This document shows, one piece after another, positions 35,923 to 45,578 of a stretch of 64,000 nucleotides of DNA (its first letter is position 1; the number at the start of each line of letters is the position of its first letter). Under the pieces are notes generated by a model, which saw only the letters and a list, made by a program, of their open reading frames with translations, was not told the DNA's origin and did no database searches. Origin of the DNA: Pleurocapsa sp. FMAR1 (lineage in GTDB: Bacteria; Cyanobacteriota; Cyanobacteriia; Cyanobacteriales; Xenococcaceae); contig NZ_OY762512.1 of the NCBI RefSeq assembly GCF_963665995.1, positions 4,402,001 through 4,466,000 of the forward strand, written 5' to 3'. Position numbers and translations under genes: made by a program.

Positions 35923-36642
35923 TTAGCTAGTTAGTACCAGTTTCATATCATCACCACGAAACCGAGTTATACCGTACTCAATTACTCGTCCTTGTTGATC
36001 TTCATTGATAGATTCAACTAACAAAATCGATTGGTTTAATGCTATCTGTAACGTCCTGGCATCTTGTGGTCTAACTTGTCTGGCGGAAACATAAGTACTG
36101 CGACGAATATGTTCGCAGCCGTAAACTTCTTGCATTAATTTAGAAACAGACTCGATCGCCTCTAAATGCTGTAATAGATCGGGAAAAATAGTTAGAGGAA
36201 AATAGCTTGTAGTCAGAAGAAGAGGATGCTTGTCCGCAAATCCTAGCATTTGGACTATTGCTACTGGTGCGCCGATCGCTATTTCTAATTTTTTGGCAAT
36301 GTCTGGTTCTGCTGGTATTTTAGCCGTCTTGAGTAGTTCGTAACTGCCTTTTTTCCCCTGTGCTTCTAAAGCTTCGTTATAACGTACCCGTTTACCAATA
36401 GGATACTCTAAAGGTGGAGTAGCAACGAAAATACCTCGTCCTTTGTCAGTTCTTAATAAGCCTTCATCTTTTAGTAAGGCGATCGCCCTTCGTAGAGTAT
36501 GACGATTTACGCCAAAGCGATCGCTTAACTGATGTTCGCTAGGTAGTTTTTCTTCAGCTTGATACACTCCCTGCTGAATACTTTCTCTTAGCTTCTGAGA
36601 AATTTGAATATAAAGGGGTAAAGCCTCATAGTTCATTACCAT
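35923..36642 (-). CDS. phnF: GntR/HutC-family regulator (PhnF-like)
   Basis: The 239-aa regulator has an N-terminal GntR winged helix (PLYIQISQKLRESIQQG, LPSEHQLSDRFGVNRHTLRRA, KGRGIFV) and a C-terminal UTRA ligand domain. YPIGKRVRYNEALEAQGKKG is typical of PhnF regulators of phosphonate operons. It probably represses the transporter and degradation genes and itself. It is separated from the binding-protein gene by 180 bp containing a candidate operator. Confidence 0.82.
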   Translation of the reverse strand: MVMNYEALPLYIQISQKLRESIQQGVYQAEEKLPSEHQLSDRFGVNRHTLRRAIALLKDEGLLRTDKGRGIFVATPPLEYPIGKRVRYNEALEAQGKKGSYELLKTAKIPAEPDIAKKLEIAIGAPVAIVQMLGFADKHPLLLTTSYFPLTIFPDLLQHLEAIESVSKLMQEVYGCEHIRRSTYVSARQVRPQDARTLQIALNQSILLVESINEDQQGRVIEYGITRFRGDDMKLVLTS

Positions 36643-36674
36643 TTTTGCTTTTTGAGTTCTTGACTAAAAACTAG

Positions 36675-36688
36675 ATTTGTTGTCTAAA
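36675..36688. promoter_or_regulatory. weak candidate PhnF half-operator at the phnF promoter
   Basis: ATTTG-TTGT-CTAAA, with the same TTGTCTAAA right half as the site at 35773-35786 and a poorer left half. It lies 33 bp upstream of the phnF start, suiting autoregulation. Confidence 0.35.
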
Positions 36689-36726
36689 TTAACTACTTTT
36701 GCTACGACTGATGTTTAGTATACCTA

Positions 36727-36740
36727 TATAGACATCTAGA
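36727..36740. promoter_or_regulatory. candidate PhnF operator upstream of phnF
   Basis: TATAG-ACAT-CTAGA, four of five arm positions symmetric and close to the site at 39064-39077 (11 of 14 positions identical by eye). The restriction-modification genes begin 116 bp further on, so this site and 39064 probably flanked one divergent promoter region before the island inserted. Confidence 0.5.
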
Positions 36741-36855
36741 TAGCAATTTCTATACAAATTTTTCTTATTGACCATTGATGATTGTTTGATCGAGCGTGGG
36801 AAGAGCGATTACTTTTTTCTGCTATCTTGGGGAAGATATCAAGCTGATGATATTT

Positions 36856-37707
36856 CTACACGATTGTTAAAAGTGTATTGTTTGAAAGTTTCGCTTCTAT
36901 GCTTTTGATAATTTCAGCAAATTCGACTTTAGCTTCGGCTTGAAGACCTAAACAAGTAGAGATCCCCTGAGAATCGGTACTGAGTATTTCTGAAAGATTG
37001 AGTTTGAGATAGTCACTCTCTTTTCTGAGAGAGTAAGAATGTATATGCATAGAATCACCTAATTTACTTGGTTTTGATAAGTGACTAAAATTAAATTCTT
37101 TCTTCATATAGTCAAAAAAACAATCTTGAACAATAAGTACAAGATGCTTGCCTATATGCTCAAAAGTATCAATCTTGTGATGCAGTTGAACTAAAATAGT
37201 TTTTGCTGTCATTTTCCAGTTCATCCCAAATTTTTTCTTTGAGGCAACATCTTTTTCAGCAACATCAATTCCAAAAGATTTCAAGAGTCTTTGTCTTTCG
37301 GGATAGACAGTTCCAGTTGTGTCTAATGTTTGAAACTCAATGCCTACAAAACCTTTTACTTTGTTGTCTCTAGCAGATACTAAAAAATAATCAATACATC
37401 CACCAGGTATATTCACTTCAGAAACTACATGAAATTCATTTCCAGGCTCATGCTTAGTCAATAAGTGAACGCAATCAGTAAAAACTTGTTTTTTTTGTAG
37501 CAAACGCTTGGGACAAATAATAATGTCTCGTTTTTCTTTTCCATAATTTACAGTACAAGTTCCAATCGAAATCTCTGGCTCACTTTTTCTAACTTTAAAA
37601 CACTTAGTGTTTGTGTAAACGCAAATCTGTTCCTCAACAATTTCCTTCCATTGTTCTTGTGGAACTGATGGAATATTATGTCCGAATAATTCAACAATTT
37701 TACTCAT
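36856..37707 (-). CDS. NotI-family type II restriction endonuclease
   Basis: The 283-aa protein shares the NotI plan: N-terminal IVELFGHNIP, a Cys4 metal site (C29, C36, C51 in GTCTVN, C65 in IICPKRLL), then a nuclease core with D106 (GCIDYF) and E124-x-Q126 (GIEFQTLD), corresponding to the D...E-x-Q active site of NotI. I start it at 37707 (MSKIVEL), which overlaps the methylase stop codon by 8 bp (ATGAGTAA) and implies translational coupling. No HIP1 octamer occurs in the RM pair. Recognition sequence unknown. Confidence 0.8.
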   Translation of the reverse strand: MSKIVELFGHNIPSVPQEQWKEIVEEQICVYTNTKCFKVRKSEPEISIGTCTVNYGKEKRDIIICPKRLLQKKQVFTDCVHLLTKHEPGNEFHVVSEVNIPGGCIDYFLVSARDNKVKGFVGIEFQTLDTTGTVYPERQRLLKSFGIDVAEKDVASKKKFGMNWKMTAKTILVQLHHKIDTFEHIGKHLVLIVQDCFFDYMKKEFNFSHLSKPSKLGDSMHIHSYSLRKESDYLKLNLSEILSTDSQGISTCLGLQAEAKVEFAEIIKSIEAKLSNNTLLTIV

Positions 37708-38800
37708 CAGCGATTTCTGCAAAATAACGTTCTTTTGATATTCCAATATATTCTTGAGATATATCAATACCAATGGACTTTCTTCCCAACCGTTTCGCTA
37801 CCAGCATAGTAGTTCCTGTTCCTGCGAAGGGATCGATAATAATTCCGTCTTCTGGACAAGTCGCCAATATAGGAATCTTACAAATATCTTCAGGATAAGC
37901 CGCATAATGTTTTCTACGCTTTTGTGTATCCTCTGGAAGAATATCCCATACATCTCTTGGTTTACTTCCTTTCGGATGATATTTCAGAAAATAGTATCCT
38001 TGATCGCGTAGCTCTTTTGCTCTCCCTGATATCCGCTCTGATTCTGAATGCGTAGTACGCTGCTGACCTCTAATAATCATTCTAAAATCAGACAATTTAT
38101 CTCGACGAATTTTGTTGAGAATTACTTCTAATGCTTTCAATGCATTTTCTTTTTCTTGTAGTGTTAACTCAGTTGATAATTCGATTTGCCGTTTATAGCG
38201 AACACCACTAACACCAGTAGCAGATATGACTTTTCCATTTACCACTTTGGACTCTGACGGTTTAGACCTTATAGCATCTGCATTGTAATAGTAGCCTTTG
38301 GGCTTTTTAACAAAGTGAAAAAGTTGCTCATGGACATTACCCAATCTATCTTTTGTGTTGTCTTGACCTCCTTTAACTTTGTTCCATATAATTTCGTTGC
38401 GAAGAATCCAGCCTTGATGGTCGATCATTTCAAGGGCTACTCTCCAAGGAATTCCTAACAAATGTTTAGCTTTGTAGGAATCACCAATATTAAGCCAGAA
38501 TGAACCAGAATCTTTTAACACCCTTTGTACTTCGGCAAAGATGTAACAAAGATTCTTGATATAATCTCGATAATCTTTTTCAAGACCTATCCCGCCATTG
38601 GCATATTGTCTTTTTCCCCAATAAGGAGGCGAGGTCATAACAAAATCAATTGATTGATCGGGTAGCATACTAAGAACTTTCAAAGCATCTCCTTGCAACC
38701 ATAGTGGATCAATACTGTCCGAAGTTAAATAAGAACAAAATAAGTTTTGAACATCTACCTCATCCACTAAATTGTTTAATTCGTATTTTTCTTTGAGCAT
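37700..38800 (-). CDS. type II DNA methyltransferase (beta class, SPPYW)
   Basis: The 366-aa methyltransferase has catalytic motif IV TSPPYWG at 57-62 before the SAM-binding motif I DPFAGTGTTMLVAKRLG near the C-terminus, the beta-class order. The SPPY form is usual for N4-cytosine enzymes, though N6-adenine cannot be excluded. A variable region (~180-270) lies between. It protects against the overlapping downstream endonuclease. No controller or Vsr gene accompanies them. Confidence 0.87.
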   Translation of the reverse strand: MLKEKYELNNLVDEVDVQNLFCSYLTSDSIDPLWLQGDALKVLSMLPDQSIDFVMTSPPYWGKRQYANGGIGLEKDYRDYIKNLCYIFAEVQRVLKDSGSFWLNIGDSYKAKHLLGIPWRVALEMIDHQGWILRNEIIWNKVKGGQDNTKDRLGNVHEQLFHFVKKPKGYYYNADAIRSKPSESKVVNGKVISATGVSGVRYKRQIELSTELTLQEKENALKALEVILNKIRRDKLSDFRMIIRGQQRTTHSESERISGRAKELRDQGYYFLKYHPKGSKPRDVWDILPEDTQKRRKHYAAYPEDICKIPILATCPEDGIIIDPFAGTGTTMLVAKRLGRKSIGIDISQEYIGISKERYFAEIADE

Positions 38801-38890
38801 TTCGACAGATAAATTTGACCCCCTAAAATAATAACTCTGTTAGAGCTTAAAAATTTTAAGACTACTTTCATATCCTGATAGAGATCGCCA

Positions 38891-38944
38891 ATGAAGATTT
38901 TGTTAGTTGAAGATGAATCAGACTTAAAAGCTGCTTTAAAATAA
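38891..38944 (+). pseudogene. 17-codon relic of a response regulator N-terminus
   Basis: From ATG 38891 the translation is MKILLVEDESDLKAALK then TAA. This is the beta1-alpha1 segment of a receiver domain with the acidic pair intact, cut by a stop and unrelated sequence. The regulator at 63700 begins MKILLVDDETEL, so related genes exist nearby. It lies at the edge of the restriction-modification island. Confidence 0.65.
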
Positions 38945-39063
38945 AGTATAAAGACGTGAAGCAAAATCGGCTTTTCTCGCGATCACTACTGCTGACAATT
39001 TCTTTGGATTCAGAAATTTGATTGATTTTAAAAATTTATTTTGCTAATCTGTAAGAAAAGCTA

Positions 39064-39077
39064 TCTAGACAACTAGA
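39064..39077. promoter_or_regulatory. candidate PhnF operator, perfect inverted repeat
   Basis: TCTAG-ACAA-CTAGA is a perfect 5-4-5 palindrome and the best of four related sites. It is 192 bp upstream of the PhnX-like start; removing the 135-bp MITE and its 5-bp target duplication would bring it to 52 bp, a normal operator distance. Confidence 0.55.
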
Positions 39078-39098
39078 CAAATATTTAATTCATAAGTT

Positions 39099-39233
39099 GG
39101 CGTTGCTGAATCGAGGTATGATTCTACAATTTTCACTACTGAGTAAATTAATTAAAAGCTAAGAGCTAAAAGCTGATGGCTAAGAGCTACGAACAGATTA
39201 CTTTTTGGTTTCATACTTCAAATCAGCAACGCC
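39099..39233. mobile_element. MITE-like element, copy B, with 5-bp target duplication
   Basis: The ends GGCGTTGCTGA (39099-39109) and TCAGCAACGCC (39223-39233) are perfect inverted repeats; AAGTT is duplicated on both flanks (39094-39098 and 39234-39238). The 135-bp interior carries repeated AGCTAAGAGCTAA-type units and AGCTACGAACAGA shared with copy A (4577-4764). It has no coding capacity and must have been mobilised in trans. Confidence 0.75.
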
Positions 39234-39269
39234 AAGTTTTCATACCCATTAGATACAAAAATAATATCC

Positions 39270-39995
39270 ATGTCTCCAATTCAGTTAGTCGTGTTTGATA
39301 TGGCAGGTACAACGGTCAGAGATGAAAATGAGGTCTTTGACTGTTTTATGCAAGCTACCCAAAAGAGTGGTCTAAAAGCAGATCGAGATCGCCTTAACTC
39401 CATGATGGGATGGGCGAAAAAAAGAGTATTTGACACTTTGTGGACAGAACAAATTGGTCAAGATCATCCAGACTTGGAAACGAAAGTAGATGATACATAC
39501 GCTGAATTTAAAAGAGTTTTAGAAAATCACTACCATACTCAACCAGTACAACCCACAGAAGGATGTTGGGAATTATTTGCTTGGCTTAAGTCTCAAGGGA
39601 TTAATATCGCTCTTAATACGGGCTTTTATCGCGAAGTTACCGATATCATTTTGCAGCGACTTGGTTGGGATAAAGGTTTAGACAGTAACTATGTCGGTTC
39701 ATCCGAATCGATTATTCAAGCGACCGTAACTCCATCCGAGATTTACAACAACGAAGGTCGTCCCGCACCCTATATGATTCAAAAAGCGATGTATAAATTG
39801 GGTATCAAAGATCCACAAAAGGTAATTGTCATTGGTGATACTCCTTCAGATATTCAAGCAGGAGTTAATGCTAATTGTGGTTGGTCTTTGGGAGTGACTA
39901 ACGGTACGCATACAAGAGAACAACTGGAAACATCGCCTCATAATGGTTTATTGAATTCTTTGGCAGATCTAAAGCCACTCATAGCTAGTTTGTAA
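39270..39995 (+). CDS. PhnX-like phosphonatase (HAD family)
   Basis: The 241-aa HAD hydrolase has nucleophile D10 in VVFDMAGTTV, cap-domain MMGWAKKRVFDTLW with K50 near the Schiff-base lysine position of phosphonoacetaldehyde hydrolase, motif II LNTGF, and the acidic motif IGDTPSDIQAGVNA. This is the PhnX-like branch found in phosphonate operons. It would cleave the C-P bond of phosphonoacetaldehyde to acetaldehyde and phosphate. It is first of a three-gene plus-strand operon with 30-bp and 10-bp gaps. Confidence 0.85.
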   Translation: MSPIQLVVFDMAGTTVRDENEVFDCFMQATQKSGLKADRDRLNSMMGWAKKRVFDTLWTEQIGQDHPDLETKVDDTYAEFKRVLENHYHTQPVQPTEGCWELFAWLKSQGINIALNTGFYREVTDIILQRLGWDKGLDSNYVGSSESIIQATVTPSEIYNNEGRPAPYMIQKAMYKLGIKDPQKVIVIGDTPSDIQAGVNANCGWSLGVTNGTHTREQLETSPHNGLLNSLADLKPLIASL

Positions 39996-40025
39996 TACCT
40001 ATCTCAGTATTTTGCTCACAAGACC

Positions 40026-40634
40026 ATGAATCTAACTATGCGAAGCGGTATTCCGTGGGACTCGCTTGTTGAAGATATCGTTACTATTTTTGAAAAAAAA
40101 GGCGATTGCCAGTATGGAGGCGAGTCCATTAGTCAACTAGAACACGCTTTGCAGTGTGCAACTTTAGCTGAAGCAGAAGGTTCAAGCCAAGAGTTAATTG
40201 TAGCTAGCTTATTACACGATCTGGGTCATCTTCTTTCAGACACGGAGGAAACTAGCCAGAATGACTTTCACGGGGCGTACAAGCCTCGCCCTTCGAGGAC
40301 GAGGTCAGCCCCTCATGAATATAAAGCAATTCCCCAATTAAAGAAGCTTTTTGGCTTTGCTGTTAGTGAACCAGTCCGTCTTCATGTAGAAGCAAAAAGA
40401 TATCTTTGTGCGATCGATTCTAACTACTGGGAATCTCTTTCGCCCGCTTCCAAACAAAGTTTAAAGTGGCAAGGTAGAATTTTTTCCGAAAAAGAAGCAA
40501 AAGCGTTTATCGCTCTACCTTTTGCCCAACAAGCTGTGCAATTAAGACATTGGGATGACGAAGCAAAAGTTGTTGACTTATCAACTCGCGATCTAAATTA
40601 TTTTGTTCCTTTTTTAACTGCTTGTATCAAATAA
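40026..40634 (+). CDS. phnZ: PhnZ-like HD-domain phosphonate oxygenase
   Basis: The 202-aa HD protein has the di-iron ligands H40 (QLEHALQCA), H64-D65 (LLHDLGH), H82 or H97, H120 (VRLHVEAKRYL) and an aspartate in LRHWDDEAK. Y30 and E33 match the Tyr-Glu latch of PhnZ. PhnZ cleaves (R)-1-hydroxy-2-aminoethylphosphonate to glycine and phosphate; its usual hydroxylase partner (PhnY/TmpA) is not in the window. A 45-bp palindrome (40271-40315) inserted in frame adds 15 residues beside a metal-binding histidine, so activity may be altered. Confidence 0.8.
   Translation: MNLTMRSGIPWDSLVEDIVTIFEKKGDCQYGGESISQLEHALQCATLAEAEGSSQELIVASLLHDLGHLLSDTEETSQNDFHGAYKPRPSRTRSAPHEYKAIPQLKKLFGFAVSEPVRLHVEAKRYLCAIDSNYWESLSPASKQSLKWQGRIFSEKEAKAFIALPFAQQAVQLRHWDDEAKVVDLSTRDLNYFVPFLTACIK
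40271..40315. repeat. 45-bp palindromic element inserted in frame in the phnZ-like gene
   Basis: GGGGC...GCCCC outer arms and CCTCG-CCCTT-CGAGG inner hairpin, much richer in GC than the gene. Removing exactly 45 bp restores DFHEYK, the expected H-E motif of PhnZ-type proteins; TCA is repeated at both junctions. The added residues are GAYKPRP-SRTRSAPH. The insert keeps the frame and recreates a histidine before E98. Confidence 0.75.
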
Positions 40635-40644
40635 TTAATTAACT

Positions 40645-41808
40645 ATGAATACAATTAATCAGACAGATATTATTGTTGTTGGGGCGGGTATTGTGGGTAT
40701 GGCTCACGCTCTAGCTGCTGCTAAACGAGGCTATAAAGTAACTGTGTTTGAGCGCAATTCCTATGCTGTAGGTGCGTCAATCCGTAACTTTGGCATGATT
40801 TGGCCCATAGGACAACCCCAAAGTAAACTGCGTCAAAGAGCCTTAAAATCCAGGGAAATTTGGAAACAAGTAGCACCAAAAGCTGGTTTTCATCTCAACC
40901 AATGTGGTTCGCTGCACCTTGCTTATCGAGAAGATGAACTAGCTGTTTTGCAAGAATTTGTTAAGAGTGAAAAAGATAATTCTGATGTTGCTTTACTTTC
41001 CCCTAGTGAAGTAACTGCTAAAAGCCATGCGTTAAAGAGTGATGGCTTGTTAGGTGGGTTGTGGAGTGCCACAGAAATGATTGTCGATCCCAGAGAGGCA
41101 GTAAAAAAATTACCTAGCTTATTAAATCGAGAATACGGCATTGAATTTCATTTTAGTACTGTAGTTACTAATATTGAATATTCCAACCTCATTGCAGCAG
41201 GGGAAAAATGGAAGGCAAACAAGCATATTTTTGTCTGTAGTGGTGCAGACTTTGAAACTTTATATCCAGATGTTTATCAGAAAAGCAATATTACTAAAGT
41301 TAAGCTACAGATGATGCGGACTATACCCCAACCAGATAATTTTCGGATTGGTACATCTCTTTGTGGCGGACTAACCTTAACTCATTACAGTGCATTTAAT
41401 GATTGTCCTTCTTTACCTGCCTTAAAAGACCGAATTTCGATAGAAACACCTCACTTTCCAGAATGGGGCATTCACGTCATGGTGTCACAAAATTCAGCAG
41501 GTGAATTAATTATTGGTGATTCCCATGAACATGGATTGAATCCAGAACCTTTTGATAAAGCAGAAATAAATCAATATATCCTCGATTACCTTAAAACCTT
41601 TGTTCGCGTCCCCTCATTAGAAATTGCTGAGACTTGGCATGGAGTTTACGCTAAATTACCAGGAAAAACCGAATTTATCGCTCATCCAGAATCAGGAGTA
41701 ACTATTGTTAATGCTCTTAGTGGTGCAGGTATGACTCTTTCTTTTGGATTAGCTGAAGAAGTAGTAACTAATTTGCAAGAATCTATGAACTTGGTGGCTG
41801 TTGGTTAA
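40645..41808 (+). CDS. FAD-dependent aminophosphonate oxidase (HpnW/PbfD-like)
   Basis: The 387-aa DAO-type flavoenzyme has dinucleotide motif VVGAGIVGMAHALAAAKRG at ~11-29, SIRNFGMIWPIGQP (substrate loop) and C-terminal NALSGAGMTLSFGLAE. The family occurs next to PhnX-like and HD genes; characterised relatives (PbfD) oxidise N-methyl-aminoethylphosphonate or aminoethylphosphonate to phosphonoacetaldehyde, the PhnX substrate. That replaces a PhnW transaminase, which is absent here. It lies 10 bp after the phnZ-like gene. Confidence 0.8.
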   Translation: MNTINQTDIIVVGAGIVGMAHALAAAKRGYKVTVFERNSYAVGASIRNFGMIWPIGQPQSKLRQRALKSREIWKQVAPKAGFHLNQCGSLHLAYREDELAVLQEFVKSEKDNSDVALLSPSEVTAKSHALKSDGLLGGLWSATEMIVDPREAVKKLPSLLNREYGIEFHFSTVVTNIEYSNLIAAGEKWKANKHIFVCSGADFETLYPDVYQKSNITKVKLQMMRTIPQPDNFRIGTSLCGGLTLTHYSAFNDCPSLPALKDRISIETPHFPEWGIHVMVSQNSAGELIIGDSHEHGLNPEPFDKAEINQYILDYLKTFVRVPSLEIAETWHGVYAKLPGKTEFIAHPESGVTIVNALSGAGMTLSFGLAEEVVTNLQESMNLVAVG

Positions 41809-41903
41809 TTGTGAAGATTGAGCTACCAACGGTTAAAAAATCTGTTATGGATCGAGAAAAACGAGTGGCTTGTTGACTTTTTTTAGGTTACAGCAGGCTT
41901 TAA

Positions 41904-43130
41904 TTATCGATCTTTGACACATCTAAATCCAGCAAAAATCTGTCTTACCTCTGGATAATACCAATTGCGAAAAGTAGTTCTTAGCACTGAATTATTAGTA
42001 GCCCAACTACCGCCCCGCAATACTCGGTGTTGATTGTCAAAATAAACTTCTGAATAACCAGGATAAGGATAATTATTAAAGTTTGGATAAGCAGCAAACC
42101 AAGAAGCTGTCCACTCCCAAACATTACCTAGCATATCTCGACAGCCATATTTACTTGAATCTAGATAAGCATCTACCGAGCTAGTATGTCCAATTATACG
42201 GTGATGATTTGAGTTTAAAGATGCTCCTGTTGCCGCTTTTTCCCATTCCGCCTCCGTAGGTAGTCTTTTGTCGATAAATTTTGCATAGGCTTCGGCTTCG
42301 TAATAGCTAACCCCACATACAGGATGATCGATCCAATCTAGGTTATCTGACCAAAATAAAGGCTGAGAAACGGGGTTTTGCTGTAGCCATTGCCAACCTT
42401 GTTCACTCCAATAATGACGCTTTTGATATCCTCCCGCAGCTATGAATTGATAGTATTGTCCACAGGTTACGGGATAACGATCGATCCAGTAGTCATCTAG
42501 GTGTACCAGATGAGCAGGATATTCATTGTCTAGAGCTTGAATAGCATTACTACCCATAACAAACTCCCCCGCTTTAACTTTGACCATTGCGTCTAATTTA
42601 GCCGTCTTGTCAGTCAAGCTTTGAGAGCCAAATTGGGAGGTTGAGTGACTAAAATTAATTATGTTGTGGCGCAAATCGTGGGCTTGCTGATGCAGTTGCC
42701 AAATAAAAGTAATAGTCTCGCTGTGTTGGCTTTCGTGTTGAATTAGCCACCGCCAAAGACGCTCTTGTTTGGCTACGGGGGCAATTTTTAAATAGTCAAA
42801 TACTTTGGCTCTAACAGCTTGCAAATAGTCCTTAATGACCATCATGCTAGGTAAATGTTGACGCTCTTGTTTTGGTAGTCCATCGGCAGAGAATAAACGT
42901 TGATACTCAGGAAATAAAGGAGCGTATCCGCCAAGGTATTCTAAAATCCAGTAGGCTTCAATAAAAGCTATATGACCAAAGTGCCAGCCAATAGGACTAA
43001 ACTCTGGATGAGCCTGATGAGAAAAAAAAGAATGATCGATTATGGACAGCAGATCTAAAGTATTCTGGCGAGTCTGGTATAGTTCTGTAGCAATAGATTG
43101 TTTATGAAAGGGAATTGAGGCTAATTTCAA
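41904..43130 (-). CDS. egtB: ergothioneine sulfoxide synthase EgtB
   Basis: The 408-aa enzyme has an N-terminal DinB-like helical domain with iron ligands (WHFGHIAFIE; then WLIQHESQHSETI, the H-x3-H pair) and a C-terminal FGE-sulfatase fold (AGEFVMGSN, RLPTEAEWEKAA, GNVWEWTASWF, RVLRGGSWAT, FAGFRCV). EgtB couples hercynine with gamma-glutamylcysteine or cysteine. Its start overlaps the end of egtC by 29 bp, consistent with an EgtC-dependent route using gamma-glutamylcysteine. EgtD is at 57268. Confidence 0.88.
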   Translation of the reverse strand: MKLASIPFHKQSIATELYQTRQNTLDLLSIIDHSFFSHQAHPEFSPIGWHFGHIAFIEAYWILEYLGGYAPLFPEYQRLFSADGLPKQERQHLPSMMVIKDYLQAVRAKVFDYLKIAPVAKQERLWRWLIQHESQHSETITFIWQLHQQAHDLRHNIINFSHSTSQFGSQSLTDKTAKLDAMVKVKAGEFVMGSNAIQALDNEYPAHLVHLDDYWIDRYPVTCGQYYQFIAAGGYQKRHYWSEQGWQWLQQNPVSQPLFWSDNLDWIDHPVCGVSYYEAEAYAKFIDKRLPTEAEWEKAATGASLNSNHHRIIGHTSSVDAYLDSSKYGCRDMLGNVWEWTASWFAAYPNFNNYPYPGYSEVYFDNQHRVLRGGSWATNNSVLRTTFRNWYYPEVRQIFAGFRCVKDR

Positions 43131-43893
43131 GATTTTCTCCTACACCAATAATGCTATGTTCTGGGAAGCTAATCCAATTACCCTCAAACATAGGCTCTGA
43201 GGCGATAATTACTGCTTCTGGATAAGCTGAATCGTTTTTTATATAGTATAAGCTAGGACTAGTCTCACGGTTAGAATAGCGACAGGCTGCTAATTCTTTG
43301 CCATTACTCAAAACTATGTTGGCAGAAAAGCATATTTCATCTGGTTGGGCTAGTTTTGCTAAATGAGTAATAGTATTAGTTAAAGCCTGTTGAAGAGTAG
43401 TGTTTTGGTTATTGTCTAGCTCATTAACTACCAGGGCAAAAATATGTTCTGAATCTGTAGTGCCTTCAATACGTTGATAGGCAAAATCGTCTAGGCTATT
43501 GCGGATAGGTCGGTAAAGGGTTTTACGAAAATGATCGATAAAGCCATTGTGAACAAACAAAAGATTTTGATGGTTAAAAGGCTGACAATTTATCATATCT
43601 ACCGAAAGATTGGAAGTCGCACTCCGCACATATCCTAAGTAACATTTAGATTCGATGTAGTTTGCCAACTGAGGTAAATTAGCATCATTCCAAATAGGTA
43701 AGATGTTTTTATAAGTGTATGGTCGATTTTGTTTTGACTGGTTGTACCAACCTATGCCAAAACCATCAGCATTTAATAACCCCGCAGTCATTTCGCGGGG
43801 TTGATAGCTTTGGACAATCAAAGAATGGTTTGGCTTAATTAATATACGGTCTAACTGAATCGATGAACCTAAATAGCCTAATAATCGACACAT
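43102..43893 (-). CDS. egtC: gamma-glutamyl-hercynylcysteine sulfoxide amidohydrolase EgtC
   Basis: The 263-aa class II glutamine amidotransferase fold begins MCRLLGYLG with catalytic Cys2 after methionine removal, then NADGFGIGWYN, YVRSATSN, FVHNGFIDHF and EGTTDSEHIF. The fold and its translational overlap with egtB identify it as EgtC, which removes the glutamyl group in ergothioneine synthesis. A generic amidotransferase is the alternative if the neighbourhood is ignored. Confidence 0.86.
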   Translation of the reverse strand: MCRLLGYLGSSIQLDRILIKPNHSLIVQSYQPREMTAGLLNADGFGIGWYNQSKQNRPYTYKNILPIWNDANLPQLANYIESKCYLGYVRSATSNLSVDMINCQPFNHQNLLFVHNGFIDHFRKTLYRPIRNSLDDFAYQRIEGTTDSEHIFALVVNELDNNQNTTLQQALTNTITHLAKLAQPDEICFSANIVLSNGKELAACRYSNRETSPSLYYIKNDSAYPEAVIIASEPMFEGNWISFPEHSIIGVGENLEISLNSLS

Positions 43894-44237
43894 TAAATTT
43901 GTAAATACTCGGTTTTCTGTCTGTTATATTCAATCATGGCGTTGGAGATCTTGAGCTATAAAAGTTAGCTGGATTAGTTCAGCCCAATCAAATACATATA
44001 GAACTAATTCTAATTTAGCTTGAATAAATATTGGCACAAAACAACGAGGCTAGATTAATTTATCTACCCTCATTGCAAGGTCAAATTAATTGGGGGAATA
44101 GAATTAAAGCTTGATATGACAGATTGTCTTCTGTTACTATAATACTATTAATTCCCCTTAATAGTTTCAGAGGGTTGCAAACAAATTAAGGTTTATATTA
44201 TTAGAATAATAACATATTTCCTGAATAAGATTAATAT
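43894..44237. other. 344-bp non-coding gap
   Basis: AT-rich spacer upstream of egtC and downstream of mqo. It contains a short imperfect GGGGGAAT/ATTCCCC inverted repeat (~44092-44158) but no coding frame, terminator or motif I can name. Confidence 0.6.
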
Positions 44238-45578
44238 TTAAGCGATCGCCCTGTCAGAAGCTAAGTCTGTTAAAAACTGTTGACGATCAAACTGGTAGCC
44301 TTCAGCTAAAAAGTCAACTATTCTGGCTGTATCTTCTAAGGCGTTTTGCAAACAAGTAGAAGCTCCTGGGGAAGGAGTAATGTTAAAGATAATTTTATCG
44401 CCAATAATTTTGGCTTCTCCCATTTCTAAAGCCTGAGTATTAAGATTTACTACCTGTGGTCGAACGCCACCATATCCCTTAGCATAGCTAAGATCATTTA
44501 GCTTGATTGCGGGAATTATTTTCTTTACTTCTTTGATAAATAGTCTTTTGCCAATAACAGGAAAATCATAAATAAAATTAAGGGCAATATAGTTACGAAT
44601 AACTGGATCTGCCAAGATTTTTAAAAAGCTAATCGCTGCTTTCATACTCATGCCTGCGGTTTGAAAATATTCCAGTATGCTGGAGTAATTATGACGTTCT
44701 AATAGTGGCAATACTTTGGCTGTTGGTCCAAAACGGGCGATCGCGCTATTATGGACTTCTGGATCGCCGTGAATTGCTGCAAAGGGTAGCTTTTGACGCT
44801 GTACAGTGTATACTTTGCCATTAAGTACCCCAGGCGCAAAGTAAAAACTTCCCGCCACACTAAGCAAAGCGTAATTTAGACCATAGCCCAAGGATTTGGC
44901 AAATAATAGACTATGCGCCCCTGCTGCTATGGCAACAGTTTTGGCTTGAATAATTTTATCTGCAATTTTGATTTGATATAGATCGTTTTTTTTAGTTATT
45001 TGCTTGACTTTAGTATTTAACAACAGGCTAATATTCTTATCTGATTTGTGCTGAGAATTAACTAAAAAAGAGCGAGCCAAAAGATTAAAGTCTACTGTAT
45101 AACCTTCATCGGTAAATAGAGCTATAATCTCTTCTTCTGTAGACCTGTTTTCCAGAACTTTTGGTTCTTTGGCTGCTATATCTGCCTGATTCAACAATCT
45201 TAGATCAGGAAAAAGTTGTTTAAACTCTTGATATCTATCTTTTAATTTTTGGCACTGCTCTAGACCAACTCCTAAGACCATTTTATGATATTTGGTATAA
45301 ATATCCTGCTGGCTATCGGTTTTTAATAAATAGTTTTTAACCAAGCTAGCTCCAGCATTAACCTTCTTAGCTTTGGCTAAAGTATAGTTAGTTTCAATAT
45401 CACCAAAGTGAAGAGTTTGGCTATTACTATTAGTATAAGAATTAACTAAAGCAATATCAGATTCTTTTTCGATTAAAGCAATATTCTTAATATTGGTATA
45501 GTTGCTTAGGGTATATAGTAAAGCTGTGCCACAAATACCACCACCGATGATCGCAACTTCGTAGGTTTGATTATTCAT
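44238..45578 (-). CDS. mqo: malate:quinone oxidoreductase family
   Basis: The 446-aa FAD enzyme has N-terminal AIIGGGICGTALLYTL and ALIEKE, SQTLHFGDIETNY, AIARFGPTAKVLPLLER and C-terminal FNITPSPGASTCLQNALEDT. These match the Mqo family, membrane-peripheral enzymes passing electrons from malate to quinone. It is flanked by ~340 and ~170 bp of non-coding DNA, so it is probably monocistronic. Confidence 0.82.
   Translation of the reverse strand: MNNQTYEVAIIGGGICGTALLYTLSNYTNIKNIALIEKESDIALVNSYTNSNSQTLHFGDIETNYTLAKAKKVNAGASLVKNYLLKTDSQQDIYTKYHKMVLGVGLEQCQKLKDRYQEFKQLFPDLRLLNQADIAAKEPKVLENRSTEEEIIALFTDEGYTVDFNLLARSFLVNSQHKSDKNISLLLNTKVKQITKKNDLYQIKIADKIIQAKTVAIAAGAHSLLFAKSLGYGLNYALLSVAGSFYFAPGVLNGKVYTVQRQKLPFAAIHGDPEVHNSAIARFGPTAKVLPLLERHNYSSILEYFQTAGMSMKAAISFLKILADPVIRNYIALNFIYDFPVIGKRLFIKEVKKIIPAIKLNDLSYAKGYGGVRPQVVNLNTQALEMGEAKIIGDKIIFNITPSPGASTCLQNALEDTARIVDFLAEGYQFDRQQFLTDLASDRAIA

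Follow-up and report, generated by a model that had tools for sequence, protein, structure and literature searches.

The restriction endonuclease NotI recognises the 8-bp target GCGGCCGC. In the available text of PMC4081073, the enzyme holds iron in a Cys4 motif and a glutamine replaces the catalytic lysine. Its solved chain (PDB 3bvq/3c25) has 383 residues and belongs to the Pfam family PF12183. Four nucleases that score high on this profile (two at 138.7 and 200.5 bits, the other two at 220.1 and 206.9 bits) serve here as canonical members of the family; those from cyanobacteria (genomes G401, G282 and G327) reach 200-220 bits. A D12-class methylase adjoins the nuclease in G282 and G327, none of that class is seen within 2.5 kb around the nuclease of G401, and a distant member in Sedimenticola has a partner annotated as a cytosine methyltransferase. 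These differing methylases imply that the partner, and perhaps the target, varies within the family. Gene pairs laid out like the one described here are found on plasmids: pBspH9 (Acinetobacter sp. NEB 394), pTR3_4 and pRHBSTW-00515_4 (Klebsiella) carry orthologous genes in the same order that overlap by 4-8 bp, at identities of 54-56% for R and 63-70% for M. The records of the plasmid relatives already name the nuclease 'NotI family restriction endonuclease', and the kind is known; a literature search on 'NotI family' and the kin of EagI returned nothing on the clade of the nuclease described below.

In the window, the whole stretch of 64,000 nucleotides analysed here, such a pair lies on the main contig rather than on a plasmid, within a phosphonate locus. 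It is very probably a complete, horizontally acquired NotI-family type II restriction-modification (R-M) system, inserted in the divergent control region of phnF and a phnX-like gene. The locus comprises the following features:

36856..37707, minus strand: predicted NotI-family type II restriction endonuclease (R), 283 aa, ATG start
37700..38800, minus strand: predicted amino-methyltransferase (M), 366 aa, ATG start
37700..37707, minus strand: overlap of the M stop with the R start, 8 bp common to both genes, read from the sequence
35923..36642, minus strand: phnF, GntR/UTRA regulator, left shoulder of the insertion (TIGR02325, 211.6 bits, cut-off 156.8)
39270..39995, plus strand: PhnX-like hydrolase, first gene of the right arm (TIGR03351, 192.8 bits, below the cut-off of 218.9)
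~36749..39032, no strand: insert without match in the empty-site relative G025, 2284 bp, GC 34.8%, bounded by aligned shoulders
36727..36743, no strand: putative PhnF operator on the phnF side, TCTAGA-centred, also present upstream of phnF in G025 and G004
39060..39081, no strand: putative PhnF operator on the phnX side, with TCTAGACAACTAGACA at 39064, in a 49-bp stretch that shares 78% identity with G025
38891..38944, plus strand: apparent remnant of the start of a response-regulator gene, within the insert and next to M, 17 codons followed by a stop
39099..39235, no strand: MITE-like repeat with inverted ends, the 28-nt arms 86% complementary

Both open reading frames are intact, with neither a stop nor a frameshift in R or M. 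The R start is placed at the ATG at 37707 and not at the upstream TTG of the open-reading-frame list, because the aligned relatives also have a methionine there (M1 is invariant in nine sequences). By comparison of coordinates, M and R also overlap, by 4 or 8 bp, in all but one of 9 other pairs; at locus L002 they are instead separated by a gap of ~136 bp. A first-pass annotation of this DNA had described an 8-bp overlap of the nuclease with an SPPYW methylase and a position separating phnF from a divergent phnX-like operon; both descriptions are borne out, as M contains TSPPYW and the operon begins at 39270 on the plus strand. A pair with intact frames could still have lost its activity, and damaged relatives do occur elsewhere (an M/R remnant at L140, an R fragment on an Oscillatoria plasmid and an in-frame stop at L135). 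Such silencing is nevertheless quite improbable for the window pair, which is free of stops and frameshifts and keeps all invariant residues. The Oscillatoria plasmid with the R fragment is itself cyanobacterial.

The assignment of R to the NotI family was open to refutation by a profile search named beforehand, which R survives: it scores 27.4 bits on PF12183 against a curated cut-off of 22, over profile positions 52-212 of 238, and is the single match in the whole 5.43-Mb single-contig host genome. The PADLOC model REase_II gives 46 bits for R, and an NCBIfam search with R has no match at E 0.01. The first-pass annotation had also listed C29, C36, C51, C65, D106 and E124-x-Q126 as the key residues; these positions are exact, and all seven residues are invariant in 9 of 9 nucleases in an alignment of the window sequence with 8 relatives at 48-71% identity, two of which, from Acinetobacter, are nearly identical. 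When the R profile is aligned by hhalign with that of the four canonical members, the match is near-full-length (99% probability, E 8e-18) at ~22% identity, and all seven residues fall in register. In this sequence alignment the Cys4 site C29/C36/C51/C65 corresponds to C29/C38/C50/C62 of a canonical member, and D106, E124 and Q126 to its D107, E126 and Q128.

The relationship to NotI itself is more remote. The four cysteines, the aspartate and the E-x-Q occur in the same order in both proteins, and the D/E-x-Q stretch of the nine-sequence profile aligns with that of NotI, weakly. However, the 283-aa R is shorter than the NotI chain, and the sole match of the nine-sequence R profile in the PDB is NotI at an E-value of only 0.33. 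As a single protein, R does not retrieve NotI from the PDB by sequence search. One canonical member searched alone likewise gives no PDB matches, and the canonical profile gives chance matches only. The AlphaFold model of R is poor (pLDDT 46) and lends the assignment no support. By its sequence, R is a divergent member of the NotI family with a predicted catalytic centre of the PD-(D/E)xK type, D106...E124-x-Q126.

M matches PF01555 at 167.6 bits. Its motif TSPPYW lies near the N-terminus (residues 56-61) and DPFAGTGTT near the C-terminus (residues 323-331). This order, IV(TSPPYW)-TRD-I(DPFAGTGTT), is presumably that called the beta class, and with S-P-P-Y it is the pattern of a beta-class N4-cytosine (m4C) methylase. 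M is probably an m4C methylase, since SPPY is described as an m4C motif in the accessible part of PMC10855626, and a C is therefore expected in its target. The assignment is held short of certainty because the PDB relatives of M include m6A enzymes (CcrM and RsrI) as well as the m4C enzyme M.PvuII (1boo). The middle region is strongly conserved across the nine aligned methylases, which suggests that they have a common target.

Such a pair would act in defence. M would mark a single specific site, presumably a palindrome, in the host's own DNA, and R, presumably a dimer with a Cys4 metal site, would cleave the same site in unmarked incoming DNA by means of its D...E-x-Q centre. M lies ahead of R and overlaps it, so that translation of R is probably coupled to that of M.

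The start of phnF (36642, minus strand) and that of the phnX-like gene (39270, plus strand) are 2627 bp apart in the window. The first-pass annotation had called for a comparison with relatives lacking the pair, and an empty site is indeed found in one of them, G025, of the same family and another genus: here phnF and the phnX-like gene point away from each other across a gap of 400 bp, from which the pair is absent. Window positions 36428-36748 match the phnF side of this gap and 39033-39081 the phnX side. The empty site is seen in this single, fragmentary genome (81% complete), where the match to phnF stops at residue 75 of 239; ~160 bp of its phnF-phnX gap have no counterpart in the window, and no target-site repeat is seen at the insert junction. 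The empty site supports the earlier proposal of a NotI-family nuclease with its cognate methylase between two phosphonate arms, and it follows that the arms probably occupied the locus before the R-M pair. In four genomes besides the host, a phnX-like gene is present (E 1e-30 or better) and the nuclease in none (0/4); no pair was found beside the phnX-like gene in the 3.5-20 kb examined around it. Gene order around this gene varies among the four, phnX being divergent from phnS2 in G050. One genome, G052 (L128:9944-16621), has a collinear phosphonate cluster (phnX-like gene, FAD oxidoreductase, HD oxygenase, AEP transporter) instead of the divergent layout.

The TCTAGA-centred sequences that flank the insert may be PhnF operators. 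If they are, each arm has kept its own.

Two further elements lie near the pair. Over 42 bp, window positions 38884-38925 share 88% identity with the 5′ end of an intact paralogue (G000:C1:4320788), the product of which is a response regulator (PF00072, PF00486); the remnant is a scar of how the insert was assembled. The MITE-like repeat, which lies between the pair and the phnX-like gene, was inserted separately. It has at least 34 matches in the genome, itself included (40 of 139 candidates scored), and its near-full-length copies are 91, 83, 73 and 72% identical.

HIP1 and codon use say little about foreign origin. The pair does lack the HIP1 octamer, as the first-pass annotation stated; as a sign of foreignness this absence is uninformative, because HIP1 is also missing from 2841 of 20000 (14%) random 1945-nt segments of a 400-kb host sample and from the native phnX arm, the HIP1-free stretch running from 36517 to 44242 across native genes. 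Nor is foreign codon use seen: R and M fall at the 76th and 39th percentiles of 157 host ORFs, a set drawn from 400 kb by a mechanical rule (ATG start, at least 250 aa). It is in base composition alone that the pair is unusual, with GC contents at the 0.6th (R) and 10.8th (M) percentiles. The host-like codon use implies either an old entry or a donor genome similar to that of the host.

Of the 60 genomes in the relatives' set, three have R (the host, G042 and G027). In a phylum sample of 386 genomes, four have a match, the host again included; one of these four (G401) is a canonical member only distantly related to R, with 25% identity. R is absent from all 12 genomes of the same genus, which also supports an insertion. 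PF12183 itself matches in 6 of the 386 genomes; as the profile missed G027, which was found by protein search, such family counts are lower bounds. Outside the cyanobacteria, the genome collection contains two loci with an R relative (a Desulfatirhabdium MAG and Gemmata), and eight plasmid records match R: six orthologues at 54-56%, the distant Sedimenticola member and the Oscillatoria fragment. All six plasmids with an orthologous methylase are predicted to be non-mobilizable. With the window counted, R and M are both open in ten pairs, distributed over cyanobacteria, a desulfobacterial MAG, Gemmata, Acinetobacter and enterobacterial plasmids and an integrase-bearing contig. The closest pair found lies on contig DZCT01000190.1 of a MAG of Desulfatirhabdium butyrativorans, with identities of 71% (R) and 75% (M); it differs from the window pair in an M-R gap of ~136 bp and a resolvase-type ORF downstream; the other cyanobacterial copies are more distant (R 60-63%, M 65-69%). 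This patchy distribution, together with mobile settings (small plasmids, the integrase contig and the resolvase-type ORF), points to horizontal spread of the pair.

Trees of R and of M both join the window sequence to that of Desulfatirhabdium (support 98/99 for R and 94/97 for M), with most inner branches unresolved and the bootstrap for M not settled. The nearest relative is the same for R and M, a sign of linked inheritance such as a type II R-M system should have. Because the window groups with Desulfatirhabdium and the cyanobacterial copies are more distant, transfer between phyla is suggested as the simplest reading, provided that the 9.3-kb MAG contig, for which misbinning is possible, was binned rightly.

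As to specificity, the first-pass annotation raised the idea of a rare 8-bp cutter with a new specificity in a HIP1-rich genome, an idea that the analysis does not support. An 8-bp GC-rich target like that of NotI would accord with the family resemblance, with the near-full-length match to canonical members and with the TSPPYW motif, which suggests m4C and hence a C in the target (PMC10855626, as far as its accessible part goes). Identity to those members is only ~22%, however, their partner methylases differ from M, and site statistics single out no palindrome. Counts of 6-bp and 4-bp palindromes in 400 kb each of two carriers (G000, G042) and 200 kb each of two non-carriers (G008, G020) show many palindromes depleted in several of the four genomes, so that avoidance is broad and extends to non-carriers; none is clearly depleted in the carriers alone. 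CCGCGG, ACGCGT and CGTACG are lower in the carriers, on few expected sites. A NotI-like rare cutter is rather unlikely. Some 6-bp palindromes are very strongly depleted in all four genomes (in G000, GTGCAC is seen 0 times against 39 expected and CTGCAG 3 times against 117), and CCGG is almost absent from G008 (1 seen, 134 expected).

The plasmid relatives offer a second candidate. BspHI recognises TCATGA (PMC6449724, available in part), and the strain behind it, Acinetobacter sp. NEB 394 or Acinetobacter species H, was formerly Bacillus species H, hence the names BspHI and BspHII of its systems, according to the part of PMC8259958 consulted. The homologous pair on its plasmid pBspH9 (R 55%, M 63% identical to the window) suggested this 6-bp specificity for the window pair. 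The nine pBspH plasmids were searched for PF01555; their annotation was examined in full for seven, and over 5 of 162 kb for pBspH2 and 5 of 15 kb for pBspH4. Among these plasmids, it is pBspH1 that holds another R and M with near-self PADLOC matches (895 bits over 381/381 and 773 bits), whereas the pBspH9 nuclease scores 52 bits; as a yardstick, the PstI-type nuclease of NEB 394 reaches 458 bits on its PADLOC REase model over 314 aa. The type II models of PADLOC presumably stem from the characterised enzymes of REBASE, and a near-self match is taken here to mark a characterised enzyme. Moreover, the host shows no clear avoidance of TCATGA (80 observed and 99 expected in 400 kb), and NEB 394 is said to have several R-M systems in the accessible part of PMC9122589. 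Since the near-self match is on pBspH1 and not on the pBspH9 homologue, BspHI specificity for the window pair is rejected with high confidence and counts as very improbable; judged by its sequence, the pBspH1 system is most likely BspHI. This locus (NZ_CP055283.1, L028:1219-3820) comprises an HTH regulator, a 381-aa nuclease and a convergent methylase, and is probably the BspHI system itself.

Two other systems were set aside as comparisons. UpaP162 of Ureaplasma, considered as a TCATGA-type system, cuts CATG sites, and no kin are reported in the available part of the paper (PMC6191088). The nuclease of the DraI R-M system of Deinococcus is a GIY-YIG enzyme in the part of PMC10855626 at hand, and the system is hence no kin.

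Relatives of the pair also occur on viral contigs. Neither the phage collection nor a scan of the viral contigs with R as a single protein gives a match. With the R profile, two loci are found on viral contigs, both with a methylase: in one, both genes are open and SmpB and a phage-type integrase precede the pair; in the other (L135:4001-4846), the nuclease frame is interrupted by a stop at codon 155. The M profile finds at least 600 stretches on viral contigs, at least 575 of them confirmed. Among the best 80, which were examined, five are 49-69% identical and the rest 36% or less; among the matches listed, these five are the two R-profile loci, one relic (L140) and two phage-like contigs (L137 and L139). 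In the relic (L140:267-975), the N-terminal part of a methylase abuts the C-terminal part of a nuclease in another frame. L137 (3908-5032) and L139 (3884-5005) carry a methylase of the window clade, with identities of 69% and 49%; its neighbours are phage-like genes (thymidylate synthase and HD nucleotidase; parts of a terminase large subunit), and tblastn finds no nuclease within the 9 kb examined. These orphan methylases suggest a role in counter-defence.

It is tentatively proposed, with somewhat less than even confidence, that the clade with an R of ~283 aa and a TSPPYW methylase (cyanobacteria, a desulfobacterial MAG, a planctomycete and gammaproteobacterial plasmids) makes up a branch of its own within the NotI family, that its members have in common a single unreported site protected by m4C, and that phages carry orphan copies of the methylase against it. 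The window pair is genuine, but as a set of defence genes acquired horizontally it is fairly ordinary. It adds to the family a widely exchanged branch with a mapped insertion point and an empty-site relative, and with a matching methylase that phage-like contigs seem to carry as counter-defence. Should the target prove to be rare, the nuclease would be a useful reagent; otherwise, the locus would be a further case of defence genes parked in a divergent control region.
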